The position numbers and the translations under genes were made by a program. From positions 1 to 64,000 of the IMG/VR virus record IMGVR_UViG_3300021440_000017: DNA of 64,000 nt; one strand, 5' to 3'. This document shows positions 707-64,000 of the stretch, piece after piece. The notes under the pieces are model-generated. The model did no database searches. It saw only the letters and a program-made list of their open reading frames with translations, and was not told the origin of the DNA. The DNA comes from a virus. The first letter of the stretch is position 1. Each line of letters begins with the position of its first letter.

Positions 707-782
707 TGGTGCCGGCTGTCGGGATCGAACTGACGACCTTCCGCTTACAAGGCGGGTGCTCTACCAACTGAGCTAAGCCGGC
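707..782 (-). tRNA. tRNA-Thr (anticodon UGU)
   Basis: Read on the minus strand, the 76 bases fold into a full cloverleaf: acceptor stem GCCGGC paired with GCCGGC, D arm GCTC/GAGC, anticodon loop CTTGTAA giving anticodon TGT, a T arm with TTCGATCC, and an encoded CCA end. The sequence is close to bacterial tRNA-Thr(UGU). It is a single tRNA between the HU-like gene and an exonuclease gene. The outermost anticodon-stem pair is C-A rather than a Watson-Crick pair. The gap upstream (783-862) has a short GGCG/CGCC hairpin and no gene. Confidence 0.95.
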
Positions 783-49282: not shown

Positions 49283-50179
49283 GTGGACCTGACAATACTC
49301 GACTCTGGCCGGACCGCTTCTCTGAACTCCGGAGTGCCCGGCATCAAGATCGAAATCGGTAGCTTCACCCTGGGCTCAGCGTTCGGGTACGCGGTGAATC
49401 CCGCAACGGACACGGCGCTGCACGGTGCCGTGCTGTACACGGGGACGCCCATCGGGTACTCCGTGATCGACGCGGACACTTGCGAGTTCATGTTGCAGGT
49501 CCCTGGCAACGTCGGCACCTTCAACTTCGGTGAGGTAGGGCTCCACCTGGTTTCTGGTGCGCTGTACGCAGTCGGCGTGCTGCCGGGTTTGCAGCAGAAG
49601 ATCGCGGCGCCCGGCACCGGCTGGAACACGATCAACATCAGGGCGAGGCTGCACGAATCGGGGTTGCCGGCGACCATCACCTTCGTGATTCAGGAGATCA
49701 CGGCGGGTGCCATCATCGAGCTTCCCAACTGGTCCACGCTGAACCGTCCTGCGGATGCACCGTCCAACGTGTACATCGTGCATGACGCTGACGACTTGGG
49801 CAACGACGCGCTGGTCACGAGAAGCCATGATGGCACATGGGACGTCAGCACACACGGGTACCCCGTTGTCGAAGCCGGCGCGTTCACTGTCGGTCCTGGT
49901 GCCACGGGGTCCGCGCTGCTGGCTTCTGGCGTGCTGCCGATGGAAGCGAGCTTCCCGCTCGGTCGCTACCTGATCCAGCCGAAGACCGGAGCACAGGCTG
50001 GCAACATCCGCAAGGTCACGAGCGTCTCGGGCTCAGTGCTTCACTGGTCACCGTCGTTCGGTGCGCCGCTGGACACCGGTGACGAGTTCGAGATCCTTCA
50101 ATCCACCGCGAGTCTGTCGGAAACAGTGGGCACCGACATCGCGTTGTTTCACGCACTTGCCACACGGAGCTTCTCATGA
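49283..50179 (+). CDS. Tail fibre-like protein (collar-fibre type N-terminus)
   Basis: 298 aa from GTG 49283 with AAAGGA upstream. Beta-rich with FTLGSAFGYAVNPATDTALH, LYTGTPIGYSVIDADTCEFM and YIVHDADDLGNDALVTRSHD, consistent with fibre attachment domains. A C-terminal segment has TGSALLASGVLPMEASFPLG. It is the first of four beta-rich proteins at the end of the virion operon, the usual place of receptor-binding proteins. Confidence 0.65.
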   Translation: MDLTILDSGRTASLNSGVPGIKIEIGSFTLGSAFGYAVNPATDTALHGAVLYTGTPIGYSVIDADTCEFMLQVPGNVGTFNFGEVGLHLVSGALYAVGVLPGLQQKIAAPGTGWNTINIRARLHESGLPATITFVIQEITAGAIIELPNWSTLNRPADAPSNVYIVHDADDLGNDALVTRSHDGTWDVSTHGYPVVEAGAFTVGPGATGSALLASGVLPMEASFPLGRYLIQPKTGAQAGNIRKVTSVSGSVLHWSPSFGAPLDTGDEFEILQSTASLSETVGTDIALFHALATRSFS

Positions 50180-51596: not shown

Positions 51597-51601
51597 CGGT
51601 G

Positions 51602-52255
51602 ATGAAGCTGACGGTACCAAGGCTCAGCGAGTACGTCGGACCGGCGCTGGACTTCCCGAGAGAACCGATTCGGGTGTTCAACGTGTGGACGCCCGCGCGA
51701 GCCGCGATGATCCGTGCTGAACTCGATGCCGTGCAATCCGAAGCTGAAGCCCTGGTGTTTCAGACGAACGGGAACGCAGGCTACGAGAACCCTGGGGTGC
51801 GCTCGTGCACGGTACTGAACCCCGGTGCGGAGCTACGGGCCTCGGTCACCAGCGATCTGCTCTCCGTGTTTCGTCCGTTCGTCCAGGCAGAACTGAAGAT
51901 GCAGCGTGCCTCGTTGCACGGAGAAATCCAGTTCATCAGGTACCGCAAGCGGGATTCAGGGCGAGCCGATCACTTCGTGTTTCACGCGGATGCCGCGATC
52001 TTCGTGAACGGCCGATGGCTTGTGAACACGCCTGAGCGGCATCTGACGTTCAGTGCGTACGTCAACGACGACTTCTCAGGCGGAGACTTCGTGTTCAAGA
52101 ACGTGGTCCACGATGGCGGAGTACCAGTGACAGTGCAACCTCGACCAGGGCTCGCGCTGCTGTTTCCGTCGGACCCACGGTATGAGCACGCAGTGACGCC
52201 AATGCGTAAGGGCACTCGGTACGCAATGGTCGGGTGGCTGACAATGGAGGCTTGA
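51602..52255 (+). CDS. 2OG-Fe(II) oxygenase-like protein
   Basis: 217 aa from ATG 51602. Double-stranded beta-helix ligands: H128-x-D130 in HFVFHADAAIF, distal H196 in YEHAVTPM, and R206 ten residues on (KGTRYAMVGWL). Strands such as LTFSAYVNDDFSGGDFVF and GLALLFPSDP fit the prolyl-4-hydroxylase type. It hydroxylates a substrate using O2 and 2-oxoglutarate; identity unknown. It follows the fibre gene with no own ribosome site visible, so it may be co-translated with virion genes. It is the first of three oxygenase-like genes in the rightward cluster. Confidence 0.72.
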   Translation: MKLTVPRLSEYVGPALDFPREPIRVFNVWTPARAAMIRAELDAVQSEAEALVFQTNGNAGYENPGVRSCTVLNPGAELRASVTSDLLSVFRPFVQAELKMQRASLHGEIQFIRYRKRDSGRADHFVFHADAAIFVNGRWLVNTPERHLTFSAYVNDDFSGGDFVFKNVVHDGGVPVTVQPRPGLALLFPSDPRYEHAVTPMRKGTRYAMVGWLTMEA

Positions 52256-52257
52256 AC

Positions 52258-52283
52258 GGGTGCTGCGGCACCCTTCTTCATTT
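52258..52283 (+). terminator. Intrinsic terminator of virion operon
   Basis: GGGTGC (52258-52263) and GCACCC (52268-52273) pair around a TGCG loop and are followed by TTCTTCATTT. It sits right after the stop of the oxygenase-like gene and at the meeting point with the minus-strand island, so it should block transcription from running into it. Confidence 0.75.
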
Positions 52284-52853
52284 CCGGTGCTCGGGTAGCA
52301 AGAACACGTGACGGATCGCCATCTCCTGGTCGAACATGGCAGTACCCATCACCTCGTCCCAGTAGAACGAGAACGCGGACACCGTGCGTGGAGGCAACTG
52401 TTCTTCCAGTGCCGACACGTACCGTCCGGTCTTGCGGCGAGCAACGCGGTCCCACACGCGGTCGTGCTGCTCTGCGCGGGCCGCTGGCGTGTACGTGAAG
52501 TACCGGTAGTACCGCTTGGACTCAGCGTACTCGATGGCGGCATCCAGTAGGATGCCCAAGCCGTTCATCGGAAGCCCGTTGCTTGCCGTTTGATCGCTGA
52601 TGACGAGAAGCAGCAACCAGGCACGCTGGCTCGTCATCAGCTTCTGCAACAGGTAGCACCAGATGCGCCCCTCGCTGTCCACGAGGCCCCAGGTGCGGTA
52701 CATTTCGTTCTCGGGCACTAGGTACTGGTTCTCCAGGTAGTGCCGTGCGTACATCGGGTTGGCGAGGGGCGCACCGTCTATGTCAGTTGGGTTGCCCTGG
52801 CGGATGCGCATAAGTTGGTCGGCATGTTCGGGGCGGAGTCGGAGTACGTTCAT
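52278..52853 (-). CDS. GNAT-like protein of minus-strand island
   Basis: 191 aa from ATG 52853, overlapping the stop of the PP-loop gene (ATGA), with AGGA upstream. Starts MNVLRLRPEHADQLMRIRQG, typical of N-acetyltransferase entry strands, followed by WGLVDSEGRIWCYLLQKL, WLLLLVISDQTASNGLPMNG and LLDAAIEYAESKRYYRYFTY, which fit a GNAT core with a weak P-loop. The C-terminus has FSFYWDEVMGTAMFDQEM. Substrate unknown. It is the last gene of the island. Confidence 0.55.
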   Translation of the reverse strand: MNVLRLRPEHADQLMRIRQGNPTDIDGAPLANPMYARHYLENQYLVPENEMYRTWGLVDSEGRIWCYLLQKLMTSQRAWLLLLVISDQTASNGLPMNGLGILLDAAIEYAESKRYYRYFTYTPAARAEQHDRVWDRVARRKTGRYVSALEEQLPPRTVSAFSFYWDEVMGTAMFDQEMAIRHVFLLPEHRK

Positions 52854-53839
52854 GTGCGTCCTAGTGGGTGGTTGATTAGCGAGAGCAGATCGCGGTACGG
52901 GATCTCCGTAGACGACCAGCAACGGAAGGGCATGCTCGTGCGCACGGCTTCGGACTCCGTGAACACCTGCGTGAGTTCACGTTCGTAGCCCGTGTACTTC
53001 ACGCGAGGTCGCAGTCCATAGGCACGGTCTTTCACGAGGTCCGAACTGTGAACCCGACGGTTGTACTGGCCGGCGACGAGGCGGACGAGAAACGGGTTCG
53101 CCAGATACGCAGCCCATAGCTCCAGACTGTACTGGTAGAACGACGGGATGACCCTGTGGTTGTCGGTCCAGTGCAGGTACTTCTGGAACGCAGGGAACCG
53201 CTCATGGTCGTGGAACATGAACGTGCCCTTGCTGTAGTCTCCGTCGATCTGCGCTTGAAGGTCCGGCACGTAGTTGACCTCGGGTTCGTTGAACCCGGAC
53301 ACGAGGGCACCCGGTGTGTCGCGCACAGCGACGTACCACGGTGCGTAGCCCACATGCTTGCACTGGCTTACACGCGCGAGTTCACGAGCCTCACCGCTGT
53401 CGATCAGCACCTGCATGTCGATGTCGAAAAATCGGTAGTCGAGCCCGAGCTTGTGCGCGAGTCGCAATGCCGGCACCAGATCGTGACGATTGCCTCCGCG
53501 CGCATGCCGGATCAGCAACGTAGTGAACGGGACACCAGCGTCCAAGAACCTCCGGACCATGTACTCGGAATCAAGGCCACCGCTGAGCATCAGCACCAGG
53601 TCTTCGCCGTGGAACCTGTCGGCGATAGCCCGAGCGTTGAGTACCGCTTCGTCACGTAGAGTACCAAGAGCCCTGGTGAGCCCTCGATTGATCTTCATCA
53701 CGTACGTTGCGTCCTCGTGCACACGGAACAAGCCGGGGAACCCGGCGTACCCGTAAGCGAACCACGAGTCGGCAGTGAACCTCGGTGTGGGAACCAAGTT
53801 CAGGCGCACCCACGCTGCGACGAGTTCGTCATTGTCCAT
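52850..53839 (-). CDS. PP-loop ATPase, asparagine-synthase-like
   Basis: 329 aa from ATG 53839. The PP-loop is SGGLDSE at 86-92, preceded by hydrophobic DLVLMLSGG, the N-type ATP pyrophosphatase signature. Downstream there are VPFTTLLIRHARGGNRHDLV and FNEPEVNYVPDLQAQ. Asparagine-synthase C-terminal domains activate carboxylates by adenylation; the enzyme here lacks a glutaminase domain (the N-terminus has no Cys start and is too short), so the amino donor must be ammonia or an amine. In natural-product pathways such enzymes form amide or lactam bonds. No partner for the missing glutaminase was seen nearby. Confidence 0.78.
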   Translation of the reverse strand: MDNDELVAAWVRLNLVPTPRFTADSWFAYGYAGFPGLFRVHEDATYVMKINRGLTRALGTLRDEAVLNARAIADRFHGEDLVLMLSGGLDSEYMVRRFLDAGVPFTTLLIRHARGGNRHDLVPALRLAHKLGLDYRFFDIDMQVLIDSGEARELARVSQCKHVGYAPWYVAVRDTPGALVSGFNEPEVNYVPDLQAQIDGDYSKGTFMFHDHERFPAFQKYLHWTDNHRVIPSFYQYSLELWAAYLANPFLVRLVAGQYNRRVHSSDLVKDRAYGLRPRVKYTGYERELTQVFTESEAVRTSMPFRCWSSTEIPYRDLLSLINHPLGRT

Positions 53840-54494
53840 CGGGGTCTCTTTGTGGAAGCGTCACTGGTCCGTGATACATGCGCACGACGTTCAGCGTCTG
53901 AGGATGGACCTCGACGAACGAGTTCTCCAGGCCGAAGTGCACCACATGGTTGTACACGAGGACCGCCAGTATATGAGCGAGCACCACGGGGCGTACGGAC
54001 TCTGCGGAGTCCGGCATCGGAAACCCGAGCCGTGCGTCCCACACCTGCACGTACCCTTGCGGGCTCGTGTTGAACCGGAACACACGGCCGAACGCGACCT
54101 CAGCGTCGGTCACGATCTCCTGGGTGTCCACGAGAATGATCGACGCTCGTTCTCGCGGGACGTCCACGTTAAAGAACGGGGACAGCAGGTCGTGTACGAC
54201 GGAGTTTTCGGTAAATACAGACACGTCGTCCACTTGGTTCCCGTGCCACTTCGCATCTGGTGTCACGACGGGGGCACACACAGCGGTCATCTGCGTGTGG
54301 TACTCGGGGCCTGGTGTCCAGCCGGACGCTACTGATGTCAGCAGCGACCGGTACGCTTCATGCACAGGCACCTGACCACGCAGGGTCTTTCGCAGGATCT
54401 CAGTCGGAGACAGCGCGAACAACACACGGGCGCCGCCATGCGTGATTTCGACGACGGTGTACCCCAGGGCTTCTTTCTCAGCTTTCCAGGTCAT
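53829..54494 (-). CDS. Hypothetical protein heading the island, 221 aa
   Basis: ATG 54494 with GGAGGACCAG upstream. Strand-rich start (GYTVVEITHGGARVLFALSP), helical middle, and a C-terminal half with RASIILVDTQEIVTDAEVAF and VVLAHILAVLVYNHVVHFGL. No family was recognised. Its 11-base overlap with the PP-loop gene and common promoter region link it to the island. Confidence 0.62.
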   Translation of the reverse strand: MTWKAEKEALGYTVVEITHGGARVLFALSPTEILRKTLRGQVPVHEAYRSLLTSVASGWTPGPEYHTQMTAVCAPVVTPDAKWHGNQVDDVSVFTENSVVHDLLSPFFNVDVPRERASIILVDTQEIVTDAEVAFGRVFRFNTSPQGYVQVWDARLGFPMPDSAESVRPVVLAHILAVLVYNHVVHFGLENSFVEVHPQTLNVVRMYHGPVTLPQRDPDGQ

Positions 54495-54519
54495 CTGGTC
54501 CTCCAGTAGTTCACAACTG

Positions 54520-54529
54520 ATTTACCCAC
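54520..54529 (-). promoter_or_regulatory. GTGGGTAAAT motif before island genes
   Basis: Minus-strand GTGGGTAAAT lies 26 bases upstream of the ATG at 54494, in the 48-base divergent gap. The same 10-mer occurs at 59712-59721 on the + strand, 32 bases before the ATP-grasp gene. Extended -10-like TGGGTAAAT suggests a promoter; with only two copies this is tentative. Confidence 0.4.
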
Positions 54530-54542
54530 GTTCGGAGTTCAC

Positions 54543-55325
54543 ATGTACGTCTCGGATCATGCACGTCGCATTCTCATTCCCATTCATCTGCTGTTCGCCG
54601 CAGTGACGGCCGCCTGGGTGTACAACGGGGCTCACGTACCGTGGCCGGCAGCAGTTCTCGCCGTCGCATGGTGGACGCTGCTCTCTGGGCTTGGCATCGC
54701 CGTGGGATTCCACCGGTACTTCAGCCATCTGGCGTTTCCGGCCAAGCCGTGGGCGCGCAAGCTCATGCTCGGCGCCGGAACACTCGCTGGGCAGGGGTCA
54801 CCGATCTTTTGGGTGGCGTTGCACATGGGCTACCACCATCCGCATTCGGACGAACGGAAAGACGTGCACTCCCCGGTGCACGGCATCTGGTCTGCGTACA
54901 TGGGGTGGATGATCCGGCTACGGCCTGACGATGTGAGTCTCAAGTACGCGGTGCGGTTGCTCAGGGACCCGCTGATCGTCACCGTGCATCAGCGGTACTA
55001 CACGGTGTTCTGGCTGGCGTACGCAGCGATACTCGGGATCGCAGCTACAGCAGGGCTACCGTACGTCATGGCCGTGATGACCGCGCTTATCGTCGCCGTA
55101 CACCAGGAGTGCGCGGTGAACGTGCTGAACCACAGTCGCTGGTTCGGTTACGTGAACTACTACACGGGAGACAACAGCGTGAACAACGTGGTCACTGGCC
55201 TCTTGTGTTGGGGCCAGGGGTGGCACAACAACCACCATCAGTTGCCTGGCCGAGCGAACTTCGGTGTCCGATGGTTCGAGTACGACCCGACACGGTTGCT
55301 GATTCCCCTGGTTCGCGCACGCTGA
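54543..55325 (+). CDS. Membrane fatty-acid (acyl) desaturase
   Basis: 260 aa from ATG 54543 with CGGAG upstream. All three histidine boxes of membrane diiron desaturases: HRYFSH at 57-62, HMGYHH at 94-99 and HNNHH at 228-232, with another histidine at 197 (NHSRW). Four hydrophobic segments (for example LIPIHLLFAAVTAAWVY, AVLAVAWWTLLSGLGIAVGF, FWLAYAAILGIAATAGLPYV) match a four-helix membrane topology. The family is acyl-CoA or acyl-lipid delta-9-type desaturase, which inserts a double bond with O2 and an electron donor. A phage copy is rare. It may change host membrane lipids or act on an acyl chain in the neighbouring pathway. Confidence 0.9.
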   Translation: MYVSDHARRILIPIHLLFAAVTAAWVYNGAHVPWPAAVLAVAWWTLLSGLGIAVGFHRYFSHLAFPAKPWARKLMLGAGTLAGQGSPIFWVALHMGYHHPHSDERKDVHSPVHGIWSAYMGWMIRLRPDDVSLKYAVRLLRDPLIVTVHQRYYTVFWLAYAAILGIAATAGLPYVMAVMTALIVAVHQECAVNVLNHSRWFGYVNYYTGDNSVNNVVTGLLCWGQGWHNNHHQLPGRANFGVRWFEYDPTRLLIPLVRAR

Positions 55326-55335
55326 GGACACGATC

Positions 55336-56409
55336 ATGAACGTAAACCCCGTTGAGCAGTTCCCCACCGCCGTGCTCTGGAAAGACCTGATGAGTCCCGA
55401 GGGCATTGTCGCCATGTCCAAGACACTTGGTCCCGGCACCGTGTTCTTTCTCAATGCGGAACCTCGTGACTACGAGGAGTTCCGTGCGCTCGGCATCGAC
55501 GTGCGCCCGCGGTCACAGGTGTCTACGTCGCTGGTCACCGTGGAACGACCAGGGCAGACGCAGATAACGGCGACTACGAGCGCGGCGTCCGCAGTCATGG
55601 GCAAGTCGTGGTCGCTGATCTGCGACGCCGGAGTCCGCACGTTCGTCGTCGAGAACGGCAAGGTGTGGTCCTCAGTGTGCAAACAGCGCAAGCTCATGGG
55701 TGTGCCCGACAAGTTCGAGATTTCTGATTACCCGACACGGTGCATGCGCAACGCCTGCGACTACCACTTCGACGCGCTGGCTCCGAAGCACGGCAGCGAG
55801 AACCTGGAACTCCCGAACTTCAGGAAGTTCGAGGTGCCCACGGAACTCGCATCGACAGTGGAAGACGTGCGCGTAGCGCTGCTCACGAAGCTGCAACGTG
55901 AGGAAGCAGGGTACGCAACAGGCGTCAATCGTCAACGGTATCCGAACACGCCGTTCAAGACCACGAGGTCAGTGCTACTGCGCAAGCACTGCAACATCCG
56001 GGCGTACAACTGGCAAGCGAACCTGCAAGGGAGCTACGAAGACGTGGAGTGCGCGGATGATCCCACGTGGATGACTCCGTACTCGGAAGCAGGTGTATTC
56101 GCTCGTGAACTGCTGCCGAAGATCGTCGGGGTCGAGTGGCAAGACATCGGCCAGATCATCCTGTCGAAGCTGCCGGCCGGAGAGGTCATCACCACGCACT
56201 GGGACGCCGGCTACTACTTCGAGTTCTACAACCGGTACCACTTCGTCCTCGATACGAACGACGACTGTGACTTCATGATCCGGGACGAGACAACGAACAT
56301 GAAGGTTGGGAGCATCTACCGCATCAACAACATCGTCCGGCACTCAGTGGCAAACCGGGGCACCACGGACCGTTATCACGTGGTCGTGGACGCGAGGTAC
56401 CGTCGATGA
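55336..56409 (+). CDS. Aspartyl/asparaginyl beta-hydroxylase-like oxygenase
   Basis: 357 aa from ATG 55336. The C-terminal domain (about 270-357) has the AspH-type ligand set: H288-x-D290 in ITTHWDAGYYFEF, H336 in IVRHSVANRG and R346 in TTDRYHVVVD. The N-terminal 250 residues have no known domain but include a CKQRKLMGVP segment and the helical LRREE-like part. AspH enzymes hydroxylate Asp or Asn, and related ones act on other small molecules. It overlaps the radical SAM gene start, so the two are likely made together. Confidence 0.68.
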   Translation: MNVNPVEQFPTAVLWKDLMSPEGIVAMSKTLGPGTVFFLNAEPRDYEEFRALGIDVRPRSQVSTSLVTVERPGQTQITATTSAASAVMGKSWSLICDAGVRTFVVENGKVWSSVCKQRKLMGVPDKFEISDYPTRCMRNACDYHFDALAPKHGSENLELPNFRKFEVPTELASTVEDVRVALLTKLQREEAGYATGVNRQRYPNTPFKTTRSVLLRKHCNIRAYNWQANLQGSYEDVECADDPTWMTPYSEAGVFARELLPKIVGVEWQDIGQIILSKLPAGEVITTHWDAGYYFEFYNRYHFVLDTNDDCDFMIRDETTNMKVGSIYRINNIVRHSVANRGTTDRYHVVVDARYRR

Positions 56410-57983
56410 CTGACGCAGTGGTGTTCGCGGGGTACTCCCGTGCGGCAATCGGGGTGAAGCCAGCGGGAGCACACATCATCGCCAACGTGTTTCGCCGTGC
56501 AGGACTCACTGCTGTCGTCATAGACATGTGCACGGTGCTCACCCGGGAGCAACGGCAGAAGCTGTTGCGTTCGCACGTGACGCCGTACACGAAGTTCGTG
56601 TGCCTGAGCACCACGTTGTTTGGGCTTGCCGGCGACATGGTTACGGAGATCGAGGAGGTGGATGCGAGCATGACCACGATGTTCGGAACCCTGCGGCGTC
56701 GCGCGCCGGCAGCGACGTTCATCATAGGCGGGTCGAAGGTCACAGCGGGTGACCGCACGACCATGGACTTCGACTACGGAGTGATCGGGCAAGGCGAAAC
56801 GACGTTGCTGGCAATCGTGAACCACGTGCTGTACGGTGATCCCCTGGTCACGGACTTCACGGTGAACAACGTGCGGTACGTCAGCGACAAGACCTACCCG
56901 TACGGGACGTACAACACGGATGATCTCCTGGAGTTCACGGCGGATGACGGAGTAGCTCCGGGAGAGACGCTACCACTGGAGTTCGGTCGCGGCTGCGTGT
57001 TCAAGTGCAGCTACTGCATGTACGCGCTGACCGGCAAGGAGTTTGGTGACTACACGAAGCCCGCGAAGCTGCTGGCCGATGCCATGCGCCGGAATTACGA
57101 GCGCTTCGGGACCACCAGGTACGTGCTGACCGACGACACGGTGAACGACAGCCTGGAGAAGGCCCGCGTGTGGGAAACGGCAGTGTCCATGCTGGACTTC
57201 CCGGTTGAGTTCGGCGGGTACATGAGGCTCGAACTGTTCCACAAGTACCCGGAACTCATCGAGTTGTACGCGCGCACGGGGCTGCGCGCGGTGAACTTCG
57301 GCGTCGAAACCTTCAACAAGGTCGCGGGCTCAGCCGTCGGCAAGGGGTTCGGAGAACGCGGCCGTGACACGCTGCTGGCGCTGCGTGCTGCCTGGGGTGA
57401 CAACGTACACGTGTCCACGAACTTCATCATCGGATTGCCGACGGAGACAGAGGAGCAGATACGAGCAGATGCCGAGTGGCTCCGAAGAACTCGTGCCTGT
57501 CACTCTGCCACGTACTACAAGCTGCTGGTGGCCCGTGACCGGTCACAGCAGGGATTCGGACCGGAGTACGCCGGCTACTACCGCGAGACGGACGAGCCGT
57601 TGCCTCCGCAACTGGACTGGACAGCGTACCTGCGTCGGTACATCAACTGGAAGTCCCCGTGCATGTCGTTGGCGCAAGCTCATCGGTTGCAAGTGGACCT
57701 GAACACCAAGTGGGAGAACTGGCGGTGGAGTCTCGACGCGACCGTTAGCGCCTTCGGCTTCATGGCGCTGCGTCGCTGGTACTCTCAGCACGAGTTGACG
57801 CACAGCACGCGCGTAGGCTACGCCGAGCACCTACGGGAAATCGCGGAACTCCGGCGTGACACGTACGCGGCACTCATGGCCGAAGTGCCCTCGACAAGGG
57901 GTAACCCGATACGTGTCACGCCCAAGATCGTGCCTGCTTCGTCGCTGGCGTTCGTGAACAAGTGGGACAAGCGAAAGGTCTGA
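56406..57983 (+). CDS. Radical SAM enzyme with B12-binding-like N-terminal domain
   Basis: 525 aa from ATG 56406. Residues 1-145 form a Rossmann-like domain (VVFAGYSRAAIGVKPAG, FIIGGSKVTAGDRTTMDFDY, GVIGQGETTLLAIV) like the B12-binding domain of class B radical SAM proteins, though the DxHxxG histidine motif is missing. The cluster motif C197-x3-C201-x2-C204 lies in EFGRGCVFKCSYCMYAL. Further segments NFGVETFNKVAGSAVGKGFG and FIIGLPTETEEQI are radical SAM barrel hallmarks. Such enzymes cleave S-adenosylmethionine to make radicals; with B12 many methylate or rearrange carbon. Substrate unknown. The start overlaps the previous stop. Confidence 0.9.
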   Translation: MTDAVVFAGYSRAAIGVKPAGAHIIANVFRRAGLTAVVIDMCTVLTREQRQKLLRSHVTPYTKFVCLSTTLFGLAGDMVTEIEEVDASMTTMFGTLRRRAPAATFIIGGSKVTAGDRTTMDFDYGVIGQGETTLLAIVNHVLYGDPLVTDFTVNNVRYVSDKTYPYGTYNTDDLLEFTADDGVAPGETLPLEFGRGCVFKCSYCMYALTGKEFGDYTKPAKLLADAMRRNYERFGTTRYVLTDDTVNDSLEKARVWETAVSMLDFPVEFGGYMRLELFHKYPELIELYARTGLRAVNFGVETFNKVAGSAVGKGFGERGRDTLLALRAAWGDNVHVSTNFIIGLPTETEEQIRADAEWLRRTRACHSATYYKLLVARDRSQQGFGPEYAGYYRETDEPLPPQLDWTAYLRRYINWKSPCMSLAQAHRLQVDLNTKWENWRWSLDATVSAFGFMALRRWYSQHELTHSTRVGYAEHLREIAELRRDTYAALMAEVPSTRGNPIRVTPKIVPASSLAFVNKWDKRKV

Positions 57984-57984
57984 C

Positions 57985-58539
57985 ATGGATTTCGGAGCGG
58001 ACTTCCGATTGCTGGAAGCAGAAGTACCGGCACGGTTGTGCCTTCGTGCGGTTGCCGAGATACAAGAGCGTGCAGCCGCTGGGGACTTCGACAACGTAGA
58101 CAACCGCGCGCGGCATCGGCTGTATCCCGAGTTGGCCGAAGCGGATGTCGTGTACCTACGAGCCCCTGTACTTCAGGGACAGCCCGGTGTGCGCGGCGAC
58201 ATACTGGACTGTGAGAACACGCCGGCGGTGGCGAAGTTCCCTTGGTGCTGGGTTGCACTGAGAACGGCGCTACCAGACGCCGTGTTCGGTCGTGTGATGG
58301 TCTCCCGTGTGGACGGTCCCGGTCGAGTAGCCACGCACGTGGACGCTGGTGCCATGGCCGTGCAACACCGAAGGCACCATGTGTGTCTCACAGTGGAAGA
58401 CGCGGAGTTCACGGTGGGTACCACGACAGTGAGGATGGAGCCGGGGTCCGTGTGGGAGATCAACAACCGACGGCCGCACTCGGTCACGAACCACAAAGGG
58501 CTACGGTTGCACCTGATCGCTGACGTGGTTCCACGCTAA
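57985..58539 (+). CDS. Second AspH-like oxygenase
   Basis: 184 aa from ATG 57985 with AAAGG upstream. Ligand set H118-x-D120 in RVATHVDAGAMAV, H165 in NNRRPHSVTNH and R174 in GLRLHLIAD. Similar strand order to the C-terminal domain of the 55336-56409 protein but without its large N-terminus. It may act in sequence with the radical SAM enzyme just upstream (one base between the genes). Substrate unknown. Confidence 0.72.
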   Translation: MDFGADFRLLEAEVPARLCLRAVAEIQERAAAGDFDNVDNRARHRLYPELAEADVVYLRAPVLQGQPGVRGDILDCENTPAVAKFPWCWVALRTALPDAVFGRVMVSRVDGPGRVATHVDAGAMAVQHRRHHVCLTVEDAEFTVGTTTVRMEPGSVWEINNRRPHSVTNHKGLRLHLIADVVPR

Positions 58540-58569
58540 TTTCAGAGCACCTGTGAAAGAGAGGCTGCA

Positions 58570-58893
58570 ATGGCTTACCAGATCAAAGTGCAAGTGACGA
58601 AGACGAAGCCCGGCGCGAGATTCCTGCGGGAAGTGCCGGTGGACGAACCGACGCGCAAAGCCGTGTACGACCTGTACGGGATCAAGGACGTGGCGACCGG
58701 CTACCTGGGTCGAACGTACACGAGTGACGACACCGGTGCGACCGAGACACTGACCGAGACGTGGGAGTCGAAGGCCGCGTGGCTGGCGTACCGGAAAGCG
58801 AACGCTGCGGCGGCCACGGCAGCGGACAAAGCAGGAGCAGCGTTTCACAAGGCGGAGGGCAACACGCTGTTGATTACCACCGTCGTAACCTGA
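58570..58893 (+). CDS. Hypothetical protein, 107 aa
   Basis: ATG 58570 with GAGAGG upstream. N-terminal strand (YQIKVQVTKTKPGARFLREV), a middle with WESKAAWLAYRKANAAAATA and a helical Ala-rich C-terminus. TAATTTCA overlaps the previous stop at 58537-58544. No family was recognised; it may begin a new transcript. Confidence 0.6.
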   Translation: MAYQIKVQVTKTKPGARFLREVPVDEPTRKAVYDLYGIKDVATGYLGRTYTSDDTGATETLTETWESKAAWLAYRKANAAAATAADKAGAAFHKAEGNTLLITTVVT

Positions 58894-58904
58894 AGGAGCC
58901 TACC

Positions 58905-59270
58905 GTGCAAGGTTCACCTGTAATGGACTTCCTTGCCGGCGTTCTCAACTACACGGACCCCGCGACGTTCGGGGCCGGAATCACCGGAGCGTCGATCTAC
59001 TACGTGCTGTTCGCGGATCGCGGTCGCTGGGCAAACATCGCGTTGTTCCTAATCTCGATACCCGTAGCGCTGCACGTGTCTCCGATCTTCGCGGTGAAGA
59101 CCGGGCTGCACGGAAGCGGTGTTGCGCTGTTCACTGGAGCACTAGGACTCATGTTCATCGAGAAGCTCGCGTTCTACACGAGGCATCCGTCGGCGTTCAT
59201 CAAGACGCTGCGCGATGCACGTGCTGCGTTACGACACGACACAGGAGGCGGTGATGACGCTCGACCCTAG
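58905..59270 (+). CDS. Membrane protein, holin-like
   Basis: 121 aa from GTG 58905 with AAGGAG upstream (alternative ATG 58923). Three hydrophobic segments: about 19-36 (DPATFGAGITGASIYYVLF), 42-62 (WANIALFLISIPVALHVS) and 70-90 (GSGVALFTGALGLMFIEKLA), then a basic tail. The layout resembles small phage holins. It lies in the metabolic cluster next to another membrane gene; lysis function is inference from size and topology. Confidence 0.58.
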   Translation: MQGSPVMDFLAGVLNYTDPATFGAGITGASIYYVLFADRGRWANIALFLISIPVALHVSPIFAVKTGLHGSGVALFTGALGLMFIEKLAFYTRHPSAFIKTLRDARAALRHDTGGGDDARP

Positions 59271-59652
59271 CATGATTACGGAGACGTACATGGTCATCGT
59301 GACGATCACACACGTGCTATTCGCAGTCATCGTCCTGCGGCTCTACCAGTTGGTGAAAGCTGCGGGGTTCGGAGAGCAATCGTGGGCACTCAGGATCGGG
59401 GTGATCCTCATCGTCGCCGGAACGCTGACGCTGGCGATGATCCCGACGACGTTGCCAGCGGTAGCCACCGTCAAGGACGTGAGCATGGACGTGCTCATCT
59501 GGTCGCTGCTGCGAACCCTCGGGCTCATCATCGTGTGCTCACTGATCTTCACGAACATCGCGCGGTTCAAGCCGTGGGACGGACACAGCGAGCGACGCAC
59601 GGGTCTGACAAGACCGGCGACGCTTGACGACCGAGTGAACTCCCGCCACTGA
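59254..59652 (+). CDS. Membrane protein, second of pair
   Basis: 132 aa from ATG 59254, overlapping the previous gene, with AGGAGG six bases upstream. Three hydrophobic helices: about 9-31 (VIVTITHVLFAVIVLRLYQL), 49-68 (IGVILIVAGTLTLAMI) and 84-105 (MDVLIWSLLRTLGLIIVCSL). Basic C-terminus with SERRTGLTRPATL. Closes its sub-operon before a terminator. Function unknown; a holin or membrane partner for the desaturase is possible. Confidence 0.6.
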   Translation: MTLDPSMITETYMVIVTITHVLFAVIVLRLYQLVKAAGFGEQSWALRIGVILIVAGTLTLAMIPTTLPAVATVKDVSMDVLIWSLLRTLGLIIVCSLIFTNIARFKPWDGHSERRTGLTRPATLDDRVNSRH

Positions 59653-59665
59653 GACGTTGCCATTG

Positions 59666-59697
59666 GCCGGGCTGGCGCAAGTCACCCCGGCTTTTTT
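59666..59697 (+). terminator. Intrinsic terminator
   Basis: GCCGGG (59666-59671) pairs with CCCGGC (59686-59691) around a 14-base loop, followed by six T (59692-59697). It closes the desaturase-radical SAM-membrane operon. Confidence 0.85.
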
Positions 59698-59711
59698 CAC
59701 GCCCAAATCGA

Positions 59712-59721
59712 GTGGGTAAAT
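59712..59721 (+). promoter_or_regulatory. GTGGGTAAAT motif before ATP-grasp gene
   Basis: The 10-mer GTGGGTAAAT lies between the terminator and the ribosome binding site of the ATP-grasp gene. It matches the minus-strand copy before the island genes. A promoter at this place is expected because the terminator ends upstream transcription. With two copies only, tentative. Confidence 0.4.
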
Positions 59722-59752
59722 GCGGTTACGGATCAACCGCTTTGGAGCATTC

Positions 59753-61090
59753 ATGGGACTACGTATCGTTGTGAGCGACGCCGGCTACTACCCGTCCTTG
59801 GTAGACCGTCTCGTCTCCGAGGGACACACCGTACATCTGACGATGCCGAACTTGCCGCCGGGTGCAACGCTGGGCTACCTTCCCGGAGACGGCACGTACA
59901 TGACGGATGAACAAGTGGTGCTCGCTGCCGTCGCCAACAGCATCGACCTGTACGTCGGCTTCGAGTTGGGCGACACGCTGGGCACGACGCTGCGGATGTT
60001 CGATCTGCCGGTGCTGATGCACGACGAATCGGCCTTCCGTCTGGAGACGAACCGCGCGCTCGGCGCAGCGTTCATCCAGCACCGAGTCTCCGGTGTCCGC
60101 GTTGCCAAGGCACAGACGTTCGACTCGTTGCCGGAAGTCAAGAAGTTCCTGGCGGGCAGCAAGAGCAAGCTCGTGGTGAAGCCGGCTCCGAACTCCGTCG
60201 GTCAGGCAGACAACGACCTGCGATGCCACTTCAGCACACCGCCTCATCGCAACACGTTGGCGCTCGTGGCCGAAGATGGCGGGTACTTCGACGAAGACGG
60301 ACAGGGTAGCGTTCGCATCGAGGAGTTCCTCCCTGGTGTGGAAACATGTGTGGGTTGCATGTTCGACGGCACGAAGTTCGACACCGTGTTCTACATCTGC
60401 CATGAGCACAAGGATGCGCAGAACGATAGCCGCAGTGGCGTGCTCACGGGGGAGGTCGGCAGCACGCTGACATGGCACCACCGTGTACAGAATCCAGTGG
60501 TGGACGCGCTGCTGGACGAAGTGGCGCAGAGCCTGAAGGGCACTGGTGCGGGGTTCATCGACCTGAACCTCATGCTTGACCCCAAGAGGAAGACCGTGAC
60601 GCTGATCGAGTGGACGGTGCGTTGGGGACGCCCGACAATGGAACTGGTGCTCGCCACGTACATGGGCGATTTCGGTGCCTACCTGCACAGGGCAGCGGCG
60701 GGCAAAATCGGCACGGTGGTCGCGGATTACGCGAAGGCAGCCCTGGGTATCGTGGTCTACCCATACGGCTATCCGTTGGTGCCAGGCAACGAGAAGCCAC
60801 AGCAGTACCCTCCGTGCTTCAAGAAAACCAAGGGCGCTGCGCTGTACCCGCTGACGTGTGTGCGGCTGACCCCCACGACGTACATCGCGCAGGATCGGTA
60901 CGCGGTGGCGGTCGCGGTGGCAGACACGATACCGAACACGGAGGAGCAAGTGCTGATGCTGCAAGCACGAGCAACGGCGCTAGCCGCTCGTATGGACATT
61001 CCAGGCAACACATGGCGTGACGACATCGGCAGCCATTGGCTCGACGACCTGGAAACCGCACGTATCTGCCTGGGGCTCAACCGTGGTTAA
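59753..61090 (+). CDS. PurD-like ATP-grasp ligase
   Basis: 445 aa from ATG 59753 with GGAG upstream (an earlier in-frame ATG at 59720 lacks one). ATP-grasp core resembling phosphoribosylamine-glycine ligase: K143 in KLVVKPAPNSVGQ, EEFLPGVET at 190-198 and the metal/phosphate segment LIEWTVRWGRPTMELV at 285-299 (E286, R290), with FIDLNLML at 268-275. ATP-grasp enzymes activate a carboxylate as acyl phosphate and join it to an amine. PurD itself uses glycine; the flanking genes argue for a different substrate. Length is close to PurD (about 430). It begins the last operon of the window. Confidence 0.75.
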   Translation: MGLRIVVSDAGYYPSLVDRLVSEGHTVHLTMPNLPPGATLGYLPGDGTYMTDEQVVLAAVANSIDLYVGFELGDTLGTTLRMFDLPVLMHDESAFRLETNRALGAAFIQHRVSGVRVAKAQTFDSLPEVKKFLAGSKSKLVVKPAPNSVGQADNDLRCHFSTPPHRNTLALVAEDGGYFDEDGQGSVRIEEFLPGVETCVGCMFDGTKFDTVFYICHEHKDAQNDSRSGVLTGEVGSTLTWHHRVQNPVVDALLDEVAQSLKGTGAGFIDLNLMLDPKRKTVTLIEWTVRWGRPTMELVLATYMGDFGAYLHRAAAGKIGTVVADYAKAALGIVVYPYGYPLVPGNEKPQQYPPCFKKTKGAALYPLTCVRLTPTTYIAQDRYAVAVAVADTIPNTEEQVLMLQARATALAARMDIPGNTWRDDIGSHWLDDLETARICLGLNRG

Positions 61091-62066
61091 CGAGACGACA
61101 GTCAGAGCCCTGGTGAACCAGGCGGATGCGGTGCCCCCTTTGGTACACGCCACCGTGGTCAAGCTCGTGGAAATAGAAGCGGGGCTCAACGCCGTGCTCA
61201 AGCCCGAGTTGGAACTGCTGCTGGACGAGCGTGTACTCCTCGTGGACGGTACAGCGAGAATGCAGTGGCGCGATGACATGTGGCATCCGTTCTTTCACGA
61301 TCTGATTCCGTTTCCGGACTGGGACGTCGATGCACAGTCACTCGACCTCGTACTCGGGCACTGCGACGATGGCAAGACCGGGTTCAACCTCTACGGGTTC
61401 ACCGAGGACATTGAATCCGTGCACGAGCTTGCGGTGGAAACCGAAATCCACGTGTTCACGAGGGCCACGAGTGCTCCGCTAGCCCGGCTGAACTCGAAGC
61501 AACGGAATGCCATCGGCAACACGGCGATACCCGAGGGCATGACGTTGCACCCGTGCGTTGACTCGTCGGTGTACCGGTTGCTTCCGCTCATGGTCAGTTC
61601 CTGGGTGTACAAGCACAACGTGGACGACGTGGGCAACCTCGTGCAAGAGATTTGTTCGTGGACGTACGTGGCCGAAGCGGCGAAGATGAACAGAGCCTGG
61701 CTGTGGATGCTGAAGTACGAGGAACAGCCGGTGTCGCTGATCGGCTTGGTACAGCACGACGAAGACACTGCGGTGTTCCAAGCGTTCTGGCAACTGCCCT
61801 TCGACTACGGGCTGAACAACGGATACGATCCGAAGCGGCCGTTGGGCACGCTCATGCTCGCAAACGCGCTGACCACAGTGTCTCTTCAAGGCTTCGACAC
61901 TGTGCTCACATGGCCGTCCTTTACCGGACCCGGAGAGCCCATGAGCTACGAAGCGTACAAGCGCAAGTTCAGCAACGAACGCCGCGCCGCGTACTCGTAC
62001 TACGGGACACACGGCAAAGCCACACCACCGTACTATGACCTGACAACCAAGGAGCTACGCAAGTGA
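61083..62066 (+). CDS. Uncharacterised protein with GNAT-like C-terminal half
   Basis: 327 aa from GTG 61083, overlapping the ATP-grasp stop. N-terminal helical region, SSVYRLLPLMVSSWVYKHN, then a possible acetyltransferase-like part with WLWMLKYEEQPVSLIGLVQH, FQAFWQLPFDYGLNNGYDPK and LMLANALTTVSLQGFDTVLT. The pyrophosphate loop is not clear, so the GNAT relation is tentative. Similar text style to the minus-strand GNAT-like gene at 52278. Confidence 0.5.
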   Translation: MVNETTVRALVNQADAVPPLVHATVVKLVEIEAGLNAVLKPELELLLDERVLLVDGTARMQWRDDMWHPFFHDLIPFPDWDVDAQSLDLVLGHCDDGKTGFNLYGFTEDIESVHELAVETEIHVFTRATSAPLARLNSKQRNAIGNTAIPEGMTLHPCVDSSVYRLLPLMVSSWVYKHNVDDVGNLVQEICSWTYVAEAAKMNRAWLWMLKYEEQPVSLIGLVQHDEDTAVFQAFWQLPFDYGLNNGYDPKRPLGTLMLANALTTVSLQGFDTVLTWPSFTGPGEPMSYEAYKRKFSNERRAAYSYYGTHGKATPPYYDLTTKELRK

Positions 62067-62977
62067 AACCGTTGAAGATCGTGAAGGACTGGGACCACGT
62101 GTACGAGCACGCGGCGCTGTACCGAATGGGTTTCGGACACGGGCCGGCGCACATCGCGTACGAGACGGTGCTGATGCTGCAAGTCCTCGACCGCGTGCTG
62201 AACACTGTGGACCCGATCACCGTGCTCGAACTCGGTTCGGGTCCGCGTTCGTTCTACAAGGACGCGTTCTTGCGCTACGCGCCGACTGCGCTGAAAGCTC
62301 CGGTTGCCAAGTACCTAGGCTCCGACTTCGTGGTCGAGCCGGGCGTTCGCGATGTGATCCCCTGGGACTTCACCAAGGTGCTGAAGACGAAGCTCCGCGT
62401 GAACGTCGTACTGATGCCCTACTACCTCGTGAACTCGCTGATGGACTTCACGACGTTCAAGCCCATGAGTCAGCCACTGGTGCAGCAGTTCTGGAACTCG
62501 GTGTCCACAGTGCTCGAGCCCGGTGGCTTGCTCGTGGCGCACACGCCGTACCAGTCTGAGGCGAAGCGCGACCGGTGGAAACGCGAGAGGTTCATACAGC
62601 ACGCGCTGATCGGCTACCACTTGGTGCCCGAAGTGGAAGCCGTGTTCGGCTTGCAACCAGGCACGTTGAAGACCCCGGTGTTCTACAAGTCGCACAGGTC
62701 AGTTGGGCACGACGACGTGTACAACTGGGACACCGTGCGGCGCATCGTCATCAACGGGGAGACCACACGAGGTCAGCCTGTATCGCTGGAAGCACGGTTC
62801 CGCAAGTCCACGCTGTACTACCCGGTGGGCAAAATCCAGTACGTGCAGTCGCAGAAGCTCGTACCTGTGGCGAAGTTCTTGGATGCCGAGCGTGCGGACT
62901 TCGAGGACCTGGTGACACCGGTAGCTCTCAAGGCCTTCACGGACACGCAGTATTGGACGGTGTACCGCAATGCCTGA
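62063..62977 (+). CDS. Class I SAM-dependent methyltransferase-like protein
   Basis: 304 aa from ATG 62063, overlapping the previous stop. Motif I ITVLELGSGPRSFYKDAF has the E/D-x-G-x-G pattern at 56-60; a second motif-like acidic region follows (DFVVEPGVRDVIPWDFTKVL), and VNVVLMPYYLVNSLMDFTTF is a candidate motif IV/post-I region. The C-terminus includes HTPYQSEAKRDRWKRERF. It would transfer a methyl group from S-adenosylmethionine; acceptor unknown. Confidence 0.72.
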   Translation: MKPLKIVKDWDHVYEHAALYRMGFGHGPAHIAYETVLMLQVLDRVLNTVDPITVLELGSGPRSFYKDAFLRYAPTALKAPVAKYLGSDFVVEPGVRDVIPWDFTKVLKTKLRVNVVLMPYYLVNSLMDFTTFKPMSQPLVQQFWNSVSTVLEPGGLLVAHTPYQSEAKRDRWKRERFIQHALIGYHLVPEVEAVFGLQPGTLKTPVFYKSHRSVGHDDVYNWDTVRRIVINGETTRGQPVSLEARFRKSTLYYPVGKIQYVQSQKLVPVAKFLDAERADFEDLVTPVALKAFTDTQYWTVYRNA

Positions 62978-63440
62978 CGTGACGCTGTACGAAATCGAGT
63001 ACGACCAGACCGTAGACACCGTGTACGATCTGCTGTCGTTGCTCGAAGAGTACCCTGTAGGCTGTGCGCCTGAAGACGTGGCACACTGGATGTCCAACTG
63101 GGATCGCTTCCGCATTGTGCTGGCCTACCGAAGGGGTAAACCAGTGGGGTTCGCCGTGGTGTTCGTCACACCCGGCTACAAAGAGATGCCCTTCGATGTG
63201 AACCACGTGCTGCTCGACGTGCTGTACGTTAGAGCCCGCTACCGTGGTCAGAACATCGGGCAGGTACTTGTGGACTACGTGAAGTCCGAGTACCCATCGG
63301 GATTCACCGTGCGCACGGACGTGGCCGACGCCATTCGCTTCTACAAGCGTGAAGGCTTTCGCGTGCTACAAACGGAGCCGCATGCGCTGGAACTAGGCAC
63401 AACAGGGACGAGACTAGCATGGCAACCGAAGAAGCGATGA
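62970..63440 (+). CDS. GNAT acetyltransferase
   Basis: 156 aa from ATG 62970, overlapping the previous stop. Motif A: VLLDVLYVRARYRGQNIGQVLVDYV with the pyrophosphate loop R92-G-Q-N-I-G97, then TDVADAIRFYKREGFRVLQ as motif B. Good match to the GNAT fold. The acceptor is unknown. It is translationally coupled to the methyltransferase and to the next gene (ATGA). Confidence 0.85.
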   Translation: MPDVTLYEIEYDQTVDTVYDLLSLLEEYPVGCAPEDVAHWMSNWDRFRIVLAYRRGKPVGFAVVFVTPGYKEMPFDVNHVLLDVLYVRARYRGQNIGQVLVDYVKSEYPSGFTVRTDVADAIRFYKREGFRVLQTEPHALELGTTGTRLAWQPKKR

Positions 63441-64000
63441 GCGTAGGGGACTCGAAGGTCGAGCACGCCGTCCGCACGCTAGCGAAGATGGCGCAGGTCT
63501 ATGGGGCTCACGAGTTCCAGATGCAGTACGAGCACTTCAGCATCGGCGAGTTGCCTTACGAGGTCAGAGAGACAGGAGATCGTGGGTTCATCCCCATACC
63601 GTTCGCTCAGATGGAGTTTCCGGCAGAGTGGGAGACCGTGCTCAACGCGCTAGGTCAAGAACGAGCGTCGCTTATCCGGGTCGTAGACGATGGGTCCTCG
63701 GACTGCGTGGTGGACGTACCCGCAACCAAGGAACTGCTGTGGAAGCAGCAGCGGAGATTCGCACGCACATGGGTCGAGAACCTGGTATTCACGACGGAGG
63801 CGCCTGCGACATCCGTGATCGAAGAACTGCTGGAGTCGAACAAGAAGCGGTGGCTAGCCCGAGGTATCGTCCAAGAACCTGGCTCCCTGGCGACGACGCT
63901 ACTGCGGTTGGCACACGTCTTCGGTCCACGTACCGTCTACTACGTGTGGGACGCCTCTAAACTCATCGCCGTGATCGAGACGCAGGATCTTCCATCGGGA
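63437..64000 (+). CDS. GNAT-like protein, cut by the window edge
   Basis: ATG 63437 overlaps the previous stop; 188 codons are open to the right edge with no stop. Residues include YGAHEFQMQYEHFSIGELPY, WETVLNALGQERASLIRVVD, and, near the edge, RTVYYVWDASKLIAVIET, which resembles the end of strand 4 in acetyltransferase-like proteins (compare the gene at 61083). The gene continues beyond the window. Family assignment is tentative. Confidence 0.5.
   Translation, partial: MSVGDSKVEHAVRTLAKMAQVYGAHEFQMQYEHFSIGELPYEVRETGDRGFIPIPFAQMEFPAEWETVLNALGQERASLIRVVDDGSSDCVVDVPATKELLWKQQRRFARTWVENLVFTTEAPATSVIEELLESNKKRWLARGIVQEPGSLATTLLRLAHVFGPRTVYYVWDASKLIAVIETQDLPSG

Follow-up and report, generated by a model that had tools for sequence, protein, structure and literature searches.

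What does a contractile phage do with oxygenases, a desaturase, and a radical SAM enzyme encoded among its tail-fiber and lysis genes, and do these enzymes work together? The question is raised by IMGVR_UViG_3300021440_000017, an 83.1-kb record of an environmental phage, whose first 64,000 nt were analyzed here as "the window." The cluster starts at 51.6 kb and runs past the end of the window, to about 67.1 kb, with tail-fiber genes and lysis genes flanking it. The phage is jumbo-type and, by its capsid, of the BcepSauron/Motura type and not T4-like; Gp23 had no match in it. Lysis genes are also interspersed within the cluster. The genes concerned are listed below.

49283..50179, + strand, tail-collar fiber protein, virion gene ahead of the cluster (PF12571, E 1.3e-5)
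51599..52255, + strand, 2OG-Fe(II) oxygenase (PF13640, 2OG-FeII_Oxy_3, E 1e-12)
52278..52853, − strand, "GNATa," a protein with a GNAT fold that closes the minus-strand operon (predicted structure)
52850..53839, − strand, PP-loop ATP pyrophosphatase with AsnB/beta-lactam-synthetase-like fold (profile against PDB, predicted structure)
53829..54494, − strand, protein without a match, first gene of the minus-strand operon, 11-bp overlap with the PP-loop gene
54543..55325, + strand, predicted membrane fatty-acyl desaturase, SCD1-like (PF00487, FA_desaturase, E 3e-13)
55336..56409, + strand, Asp_Arg_Hydrox-type 2OG oxygenase with N-terminal extension (PF05118, E 7.5e-13)
56406..57983, + strand, radical SAM protein with B12-binding-like domain (Radical_SAM, E 9e-15)
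57985..58539, + strand, Asp_Arg_Hydrox-type 2OG oxygenase (H118, D120, H165, R174; PF05118, E 8.8e-7)
58923..59270, + strand, holin-like membrane protein, lysis gene inside the cluster (weak assignment; phrog_198, E 0.03)
59753..61090, + strand, PurD-like ATP-grasp ligase (PF01071; TIGR00877, E 2e-18, well short of the cut-off for that model; PDB PurD, E 1e-9)
61113..62066, + strand, protein without a match
62063..62977, + strand, protein without a match in Pfam, NCBIfam, or PDB
62970..63440, + strand, GNAT acetyltransferase (PF00583, E 1e-11)
63419..64186, + strand, protein without a match, extending beyond the window
66314-67090, outside the window, QueC-like gene

The cluster is two things: a first half (51.6-58.5 kb) that recurs in other viruses and a separate second half, from the ATP-grasp gene to the QueC-like gene. 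In the first half, the three oxygenase-like genes of the initial annotation all code for 2OG oxygenases. The one at 51599 has the HxD...H motif by eye and a homologue at the equivalent place in G001, a 177-kb relative, whereas those at 55336 and 57985 are paralogues of each other. Among PF05118 relatives, the HxD...H triad and the 2OG-binding arginine are largely kept (H 46/46, D 41/46, H 46/46, R 42/46). The membrane desaturase is likewise borne out as a prediction by PF00487 and by its histidine boxes, which are all present, with the histidines kept in 58-59 of 59 sequences; its nearest solved relative, when the A1 profile is compared with PDB, is acyl-CoA desaturase 1 (E 1e-20). The radical SAM assignment holds as well, and CxxxCxxC is found in 35/35 relatives. 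Its N-terminus is B12-binding-like (PF02310, E 3e-5) at 24.3 bits, under the Pfam cut-off of 32.1. The nearest NCBIfam model is TIGR04072 (lipid-biosynthesis B12 radical SAM), reached at 82 bits against a cut-off of 360, and the profile of this protein extends to TokK and CysS.

For the asparagine-synthase-like PP-loop protein, the Pfam match is weak, whereas a profile comparison with PDB and a predicted structure (AF2 pLDDT 90) make the assignment clear. Its top PDB match by Foldseek is beta-lactam synthetase 1jgt (E 2e-7), a superfamily-level match at a TM of 0.37-0.44. In this 329-aa protein, the PP-loop falls at residue 86 and an N-terminal Ntn (glutaminase-type) domain is lacking; SGGxDS is conserved in 75-79 of 79 sequences. 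Its operon partner GNATa has no Pfam match; the predicted structure of its family (A7; pLDDT 81) matches GNATs in Foldseek at E ~1e-8. The 53829 protein found no match in Pfam, NCBIfam, or PDB profile searches, nor in the module loci. A reading of this protein and of G001 97705 as E1-like/RRE RiPP proteins was unsupported by NCBIfam, PDB, and pairwise comparison. Coupled overlaps of 4 bp, as first described, are present at 52850/52278, 55336/56406, and 61113/62063. The module genes are under purifying selection, with median dN/dS values of 0.08-0.10 and conserved catalytic residues.

The second half is a different matter. Here, the PurD-like ligase at 59753 is upheld, whereas the supposed methyltransferase at 62063 matches nothing in Pfam, NCBIfam, or PDB. 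Of up to four GNATs proposed across the cluster, those at 62970 and, by predicted fold, 52278 remain, and those at 61113 and 63419 were not confirmed. Genes for a PIG-L deacetylase, a group-1 glycosyltransferase, and a methyltransferase, as well as the QueC-like gene, follow downstream of the window (L001:1183-4090). No second-half protein is strongly matched in the module loci, where one weak glycosyltransferase match was seen and the QueC-like protein (QueC66314) has no relative. This half is also absent from G001, and it is proposed to be a separate, lineage-specific cargo set.

How widespread is the first half? Alignment-based scans of viral contigs confirmed relatives of the PP-loop protein in 91 IMG/VR contig stretches and of the radical SAM protein in 37, compared to only one confirmed cellular contig for the PP-loop family. 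The genome scan used the A3 alignment, the 47-sequence PP-loop alignment being too divergent for it, and searches of viral contigs with one protein at a time (radical SAM, ATP-grasp, or 62063) were negative. The module recurs in dozens of uncultivated virus sequences, whereas cultured phages and sequenced bacteria almost lack it. Radical SAM and PP-loop seeds, three of each, had no tblastn match in 50,697 phage records. A desaturase match in Acinetobacter "phage MD-2021a" was ignored, as the record looks like a bacterial chromosome labeled as phage. Tail sheath or gp23 is encoded in the contigs of 10 relatives.

Loci were dereplicated into 51 groups before counting. In the 34 groups found with PP-loop seeds, a desaturase is present in 19, an Asp_Arg_Hydrox-type hydroxylase (AspHyd) in 15, and a radical SAM gene in 9. 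By whole-contig permutation (5000 permutations), the desaturase lies ≤5 kb from the seed gene in 23/27 contigs (null 5.6; 0/5000), AspHyd ≤2.5 kb from it in 11/26 (null 2.6; 0/5000), and FA_hydroxylase ≤5 kb from it in 6/7 (null 1.4). Gene order is repeated too, with directional pairs of PP-loop then GNAT (13), GNAT then desaturase (12), Rieske then PP-loop (8), and FA-hydroxylase then PP-loop (3). The window and L032, L056, and L042 share the PP-loop and GNATa pair with the identical 4-bp overlap, and the order desaturase, AspHyd, radical SAM is common to the window and L100 and, with insertions, G001. L050 and L069 have a compact operon that runs desaturase, GNATa, desaturase, Rieske, PP-loop. 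An acyl carrier protein (ACP) is encoded in 4/49 contigs, G001 among them, and in the other three (3/3), which include L054 and L069, it directly adjoins the desaturase or AspHyd. ACPS lies about 2 kb from ACP in one contig, L069; a second candidate, L057:16079, was not confirmed as AcpS. The polyyne-like feature of ACP beside several desaturases is seen in 3 relatives, with no ACP found in the 83.1-kb record of the window phage, which is a fragment. Recurrence and gene order in many independent viral contigs support the joint action first suggested for the whole cluster in the case of the first half, but not of the second half, whose proteins lack strong relatives there.

Among the products first suggested, an acyl or lipid type is favored because of the ACP, desaturases, FA_hydroxylase, and Rieske proteins; nothing was found in the first half that points toward a modified nucleobase, and a peptide or protein target is possible but less likely. 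There is about an even chance that the first half represents one instance of a module found repeatedly among viruses, its role being to produce or alter an acyl (fatty-acid-derived) molecule late in infection. What is observed is the set of enzyme families with their conserved catalytic residues, the signature of purifying selection, the repeated occurrence and gene order, and the location between tail-fiber and lysis genes; the chemistry is inferred. The membrane desaturases and 2OG hydroxylases would oxidize an acyl chain on ACP or in a lipid, joined in relatives by Rieske and fatty-acid hydroxylases; ACP is phage-borne in some relatives and would be supplied by the host for the window phage. 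The B12-radical SAM enzyme could alkylate or rearrange an unactivated carbon. The PP-loop enzyme, whose fold is like the synthetase half of asparagine/beta-lactam synthetase, would adenylate a carboxylate to give an amide, and its GNAT partner would acylate an amine. The product would likely be a tailored acyl-amide or aminolipid altering the host envelope or virion surface.

Several observations were counted against the acyl reading: the rarity of ACP, the superfamily-level Foldseek match of the PP-loop protein (TM 0.37), the divergent transcription of the PP-loop and desaturase genes in the window, and the lack, in about half of the relatives' contigs, of any phage marker family that was looked for. 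Also, proteins and small molecules are further targets of PF05118 and radical SAM enzymes. PF05118 and PF13640 include protein Asp/Asn and Pro hydroxylases, and the module could instead tailor tail-fiber or other virion proteins after translation, with 2OG hydroxylases, radical SAM enzymes, and GNATs modifying side chains or termini and the PP-loop enzyme adding an amide link. A tail-collar fiber gene does precede the cluster, and pelagimyophages put such genes in their tail-fiber island (PMC7029224). However, Mtd_N tail-fiber proteins are near the seed in 4/15, the chance level by permutation, and SCD1-like desaturases, FA_hydroxylases, and ACP fit protein targets poorly, so this explanation is considered unlikely. 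It is rather improbable that the genes are hypervariable cargo gathered beside tail fibers by recombination, each acting alone without a common pathway. Such islands are known (PMC7029224) and second-half genes lack conserved partners, but the directional, overlapping gene pairs repeated across unrelated contigs and the permutation tests of co-localization speak against it.

A soluble antibiotic-like or signaling molecule, for example, a beta-lactam-like one, would draw on a PP-loop synthetase, B12 radical SAM enzyme, and 2OG oxygenases as in carbapenem pathways, and both the beta-lactam synthetase match and the reach to TokK and CysS suit it. These matches are superfamily-level only, desaturases and ACP are foreign to carbapenem pathways, and resistance or export genes were not noticed; the idea is distinctly improbable. 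Modification of a surface glycan (O-antigen) has still less to commend it: a group-1 glycosyltransferase and a PIG-L deacetylase are encoded 6-7 kb farther downstream, and marine phage islands often include glycosyltransferases (PMC7029224), but GT2 is present in just 7/50 contigs and ≤5 kb from the seed in 0/7. DNA nucleobase modification is hardly credible, as the QueC-like gene that would favor it is confined to the second half.

Viruses are thought to take single metabolic genes from their hosts. A multi-enzyme module centered on this PP-loop family, which is viral-dominated and, with the seeds used, undetected in about 50,000 phage records, would imply that phages sustain a biosynthetic chemistry belonging to themselves, and new acyl compounds are predicted in infected cells. 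A bolder and more tentative form, which is possible without being probable, holds that a virus-owned pathway, nearly absent from sequenced bacteria, is spread over numerous groups of uncultivated phages, both jumbo and T4-like. It would make a specialized acyl-amide lipid by desaturating an ACP-bound chain, by hydroxylation, and with an amide synthetase of the virus-specific PP-loop type, for late remodeling of the host envelope or virion. The module also offers desaturases, hydroxylases, radical SAM enzymes, and amide synthetases of unusual kinds, and a frame for the numerous 2OG oxygenase and radical SAM genes of aquatic phages that lack an explanation.

No published description of the module was found in the literature searched. 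The initial view that contractile phages have no equivalent is refuted by the islands of G001 and the cultured Pelagibacter phage Mosig. The island of G001 is larger and occupies the equivalent place, directly behind a homologue (43% identical) of the 49283 tail-collar fiber gene; the virion genes at 30-48 kb are collinear between the two phages, and the island genes are shuffled. Pelagimyophages and cyanomyophages have a hypervariable host-recognition cluster with variable genes beside tail fibers (PMC7029224). The window phage shares the tail-fiber adjacency and the variable content beside syntenic virion genes, but its island is not sited as in T4-like genomes, between VrlC and gp14. In Mosig, the island likewise adjoins tail-fiber genes and carries genes for FA_desaturase, two Asp_Arg_Hydrox proteins, TauD, GNAT, a MoaA-like radical SAM enzyme, and a methyltransferase, although only the desaturase is clearly homologous (26%) and the PP-loop/GNATa pair was not recognized. 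Cyanophages P-HM1 and P-HM2 also have ACP, ACPS, two Asp-type hydroxylases (asparaginyl beta-hydroxylase), and TauD (PMC3037559). In the cultured P-HM2, however, these genes lie far apart, with ACP at 19.0 kb, ACPS at 41.9 kb, and TauD at 1.1 kb, and a desaturase and PP-loop gene were not seen.

The jumbo phages BcepSauron, Motura, AD1, and Y3 are capsid relatives (34-47%) in which no desaturase relative was found. AD1 and Y3 carry an asparagine-synthase gene and a radical SAM gene, and Y3 an oxygenase (PMC6143709), but their PP-loop proteins are only distantly related to that of the window and sited near the terminase. The radical SAM protein shares CxxxCxxC and a B12-like N-terminal domain with B12-binding enzymes such as TIGR04072 (of which, by its bit score, it is not a member), PhpK, HpnJ, TokK, and CysS. 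Similarly, the PP-loop protein resembles the synthetase domain of asparagine and beta-lactam synthetases in its SGGxDS motif and, at superfamily level, its fold, whereas without their N-terminal glutaminase-type domain, it belongs to a separate, almost exclusively viral family.

The window holds one copy of a recurrent, ordered and selected viral enzyme module. The window covers positions 1-64,000 of an 83.1-kb IMG/VR virus record, itself probably part of a larger genome, and the phage is contractile, since a tail sheath was found. The major capsid protein (32747-33832) shares 64% identity with its counterpart on G001 (IMGVR_UViG_3300010965_000002), a viral contig of 177 kb, and at most 47% with those of jumbo myophages, BcepSauron, Motura and GR7B among them. 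The window also carries a lone tRNA-Thr gene (707-782, minus strand) and an NAD-salvage gene, a nicotinamide phosphoribosyltransferase homologue (15137-16687, minus strand; phrog_448, E 1e-136), which could serve as a counter to NAD-depleting defenses. Beyond it, record 70298-72019 (L001:7298-9019, L001 being a stretch of the same record) encodes a phrog_23460 protein that weakly resembles integrases (phrog_1, E 2e-4).

The cluster enzymes were checked by gene calling and profile searches, and the oxygenases, PP-loop protein, desaturase, radical SAM protein and ATP-grasp protein of the initial annotation were borne out. Among the GNAT-like proteins it had proposed, 62970 is supported by a profile and 52278 by its predicted structure, but no search supports 61113 or 63419, nor the methyltransferase claimed at 62063. 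The genes are as follows.

51602: 2OG oxygenase
52278, minus strand: GNAT-fold protein (family GNATa)
52850-53839, minus strand: PP-loop protein
54543, plus strand: membrane desaturase
55336: 2OG oxygenase
56406, plus strand: radical SAM protein with a B12-binding-like N-terminus
57985: 2OG oxygenase
58923-59270: holin-like gene inside the cluster (weak match)
59753: ATP-grasp protein, PurD-like by profile
62970: GNAT protein
Beyond the window, to about 67.1 kb: PIG-L deacetylase, group-1 glycosyltransferase, methyltransferase and QueC-like protein
L001:4658-5385 and L001:6190-6864, downstream of the cluster: spanin-like pair (weak matches) and endolysin

Because lysis genes lie within and after it, the cluster is placed among the late genes; the holin-like gene, spanin-like pair and endolysin look like a split lysis cassette.

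To look for relatives in viral contigs, the PP-loop and radical SAM families were each used as a small query alignment; 91 and 37 relatives, respectively, were confirmed, in loci that dereplicate to 51 groups. PP-loop-seeded groups (n = 34) contain a desaturase in 19 cases, a PF05118-type oxygenase in 15 and a radical SAM gene in 9, while the 17 radical-SAM-seeded groups contain a PP-loop gene in 8, a desaturase in 7 and PF05118 in 8. As a chance test, all Pfam matches were mapped on 50 whole contigs and positions rotated per contig, with PP-loop and radical SAM genes alone as seeds. A desaturase lies within 5 kb of a seed in 23 of 27 desaturase-bearing contigs (null mean 5.6; 0 of 5,000 rotations), a PF05118 protein comes within 2.5 kb on 11 of 26 contigs (null 2.6; 0 of 5,000), and an FA_hydroxylase within 5 kb on 6 of 7 (null 1.4; 2 of 5,000). 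Glycosyltransferase family 2 showed no attraction to the seeds in this test (0 of 7 contigs).

Gene order recurs as well. Counting neighbors on the same strand, one locus per group, PP-loop is followed by GNAT 13 times, GNAT by desaturase 12, desaturase by desaturase 10, Rieske by PP-loop 8, desaturase by PF05118 5 and FA_hydroxylase by PP-loop 3. The usual operon runs desaturase-GNATa-desaturase-Rieske (or FA_hydroxylase)-PP-loop, as in loci L050, L069, L049 and L043. The window's minus-strand PP-loop-GNATa pair, with its 4-bp overlap, repeats exactly in L032, L056 and L042, and its plus-strand order desaturase-PF05118-radical SAM returns in L100 and, with other oxygenases between, in G001. 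Median dN/dS is 0.08-0.10 across four module families, whose catalytic residues are conserved.

Some relatives carry many copies: the 73-kb contig of L049 (G013) bears eight desaturase genes, and L041 at least six PP-loop genes inside 21 kb. A secreted family (L069:13147-14043, L122:17524-18420, L041:5051-5920), present in 12 groups, looks by eye like putative TctC-type solute-binding proteins.

A scan of bacterial and archaeal genomes (257 Gb) found the PP-loop family a single time, on a Bdellovibrionota MAG contig (L134:9905-14171) where a PAP2 phosphatase follows a pair of PP-loop genes, one of them with a fused GNAT domain. No match turned up in 50,697 phage records with three PP-loop and three radical SAM seeds. 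That the PP-loop family is nearly virus-specific is a working statement, because the searches were pattern- or BLAST-limited. Ten relatives' contigs, G001 and a 332-kb contig among them, carry tail sheath or gp23, and 15 carry Mtd_N. These contigs, at least, therefore come from real phages; the others are viral by IMG/VR classification. CAKLQH020000002.1, labelled Acinetobacter phage MD-2021a, is apparently a bacterial chromosome (trpA, trpB, folC and similar genes).

Between 30 and 48 kb the virion genes run collinear with those of G001. The larger island of G001 (97-119 kb) holds two desaturases, two PP-loop proteins and one B12-radical SAM protein, together with TauD, PhyH and at least eight oxygenases of PF05118 type or related to it; it also encodes three SDRs, a nitroreductase, a class-III aminotransferase and GNATs. 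Its many PF05118 paralogs suggest tandem family expansion in a phage. Regarding the same gene combination in other viral genomes, the first half of the cluster recurs, but 58.6-67.1 kb has zero matches in the G001 island; by this comparison the first half is common to both but diverged and the second lineage-specific.

The best clue to the module's substrate class is an acyl carrier protein, bearing the motif GDSLD, whose gene adjoins desaturase or oxygenase genes in three relatives (L054, L057, L069; probability about 5e-4 under random placement); L069 also encodes an ACP synthase (PF01648, E 1e-15) some 2 kb from its ACP. The desaturase is nearest to acyl-CoA desaturase 1. The radical SAM protein comes closest to a B12 radical SAM family of lipid biosynthesis, although it scores far under that family's cut-off. 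The first matches of the PP-loop model (pLDDT 90) are beta-lactam synthetase and asparagine synthetase, similar at superfamily level; its close matches are all uncharacterized proteins of uncultured Caudovirales (TM 0.79). We give an even chance to the reading that the enzymes tailor an acyl chain and build an acyl amide or aminolipid, which would alter the host envelope or virion. The main rival is protein tailoring of tail fibers. The cluster starts 1.4 kb downstream of a tail-collar fiber gene, and the G001 island directly follows its own at 94.8 kb; the tail-fiber domain Mtd_N showed no attraction to the seeds under rotation (4 of 15 contigs vs. null 3.1).

On the present data the second half, from ATP-grasp to QueC-like, is unlinked cargo. 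A QueC-type Zn motif can be made out by eye in the QueC-like protein (record 66314-67090, L001:3314-4090), for which Cap9 was the sole solved relative found; its target could be a nucleobase or a protein terminus.

No description of this module was found in the open-licence literature. The kind of island is itself not new: marine phages are known to bear islands beside their tail fibers that include oxygenase and radical SAM genes (PMC7029224), and the cultured pelagiphage Mosig has one like the window's. Among cultured cyanophages, P-HM1 and P-HM2 have genes for ACP, ACPS and TauD as well as two Asp-type hydroxylases (PMC3037559), but in P-HM2 the ACP, ACPS and TauD genes are scattered.
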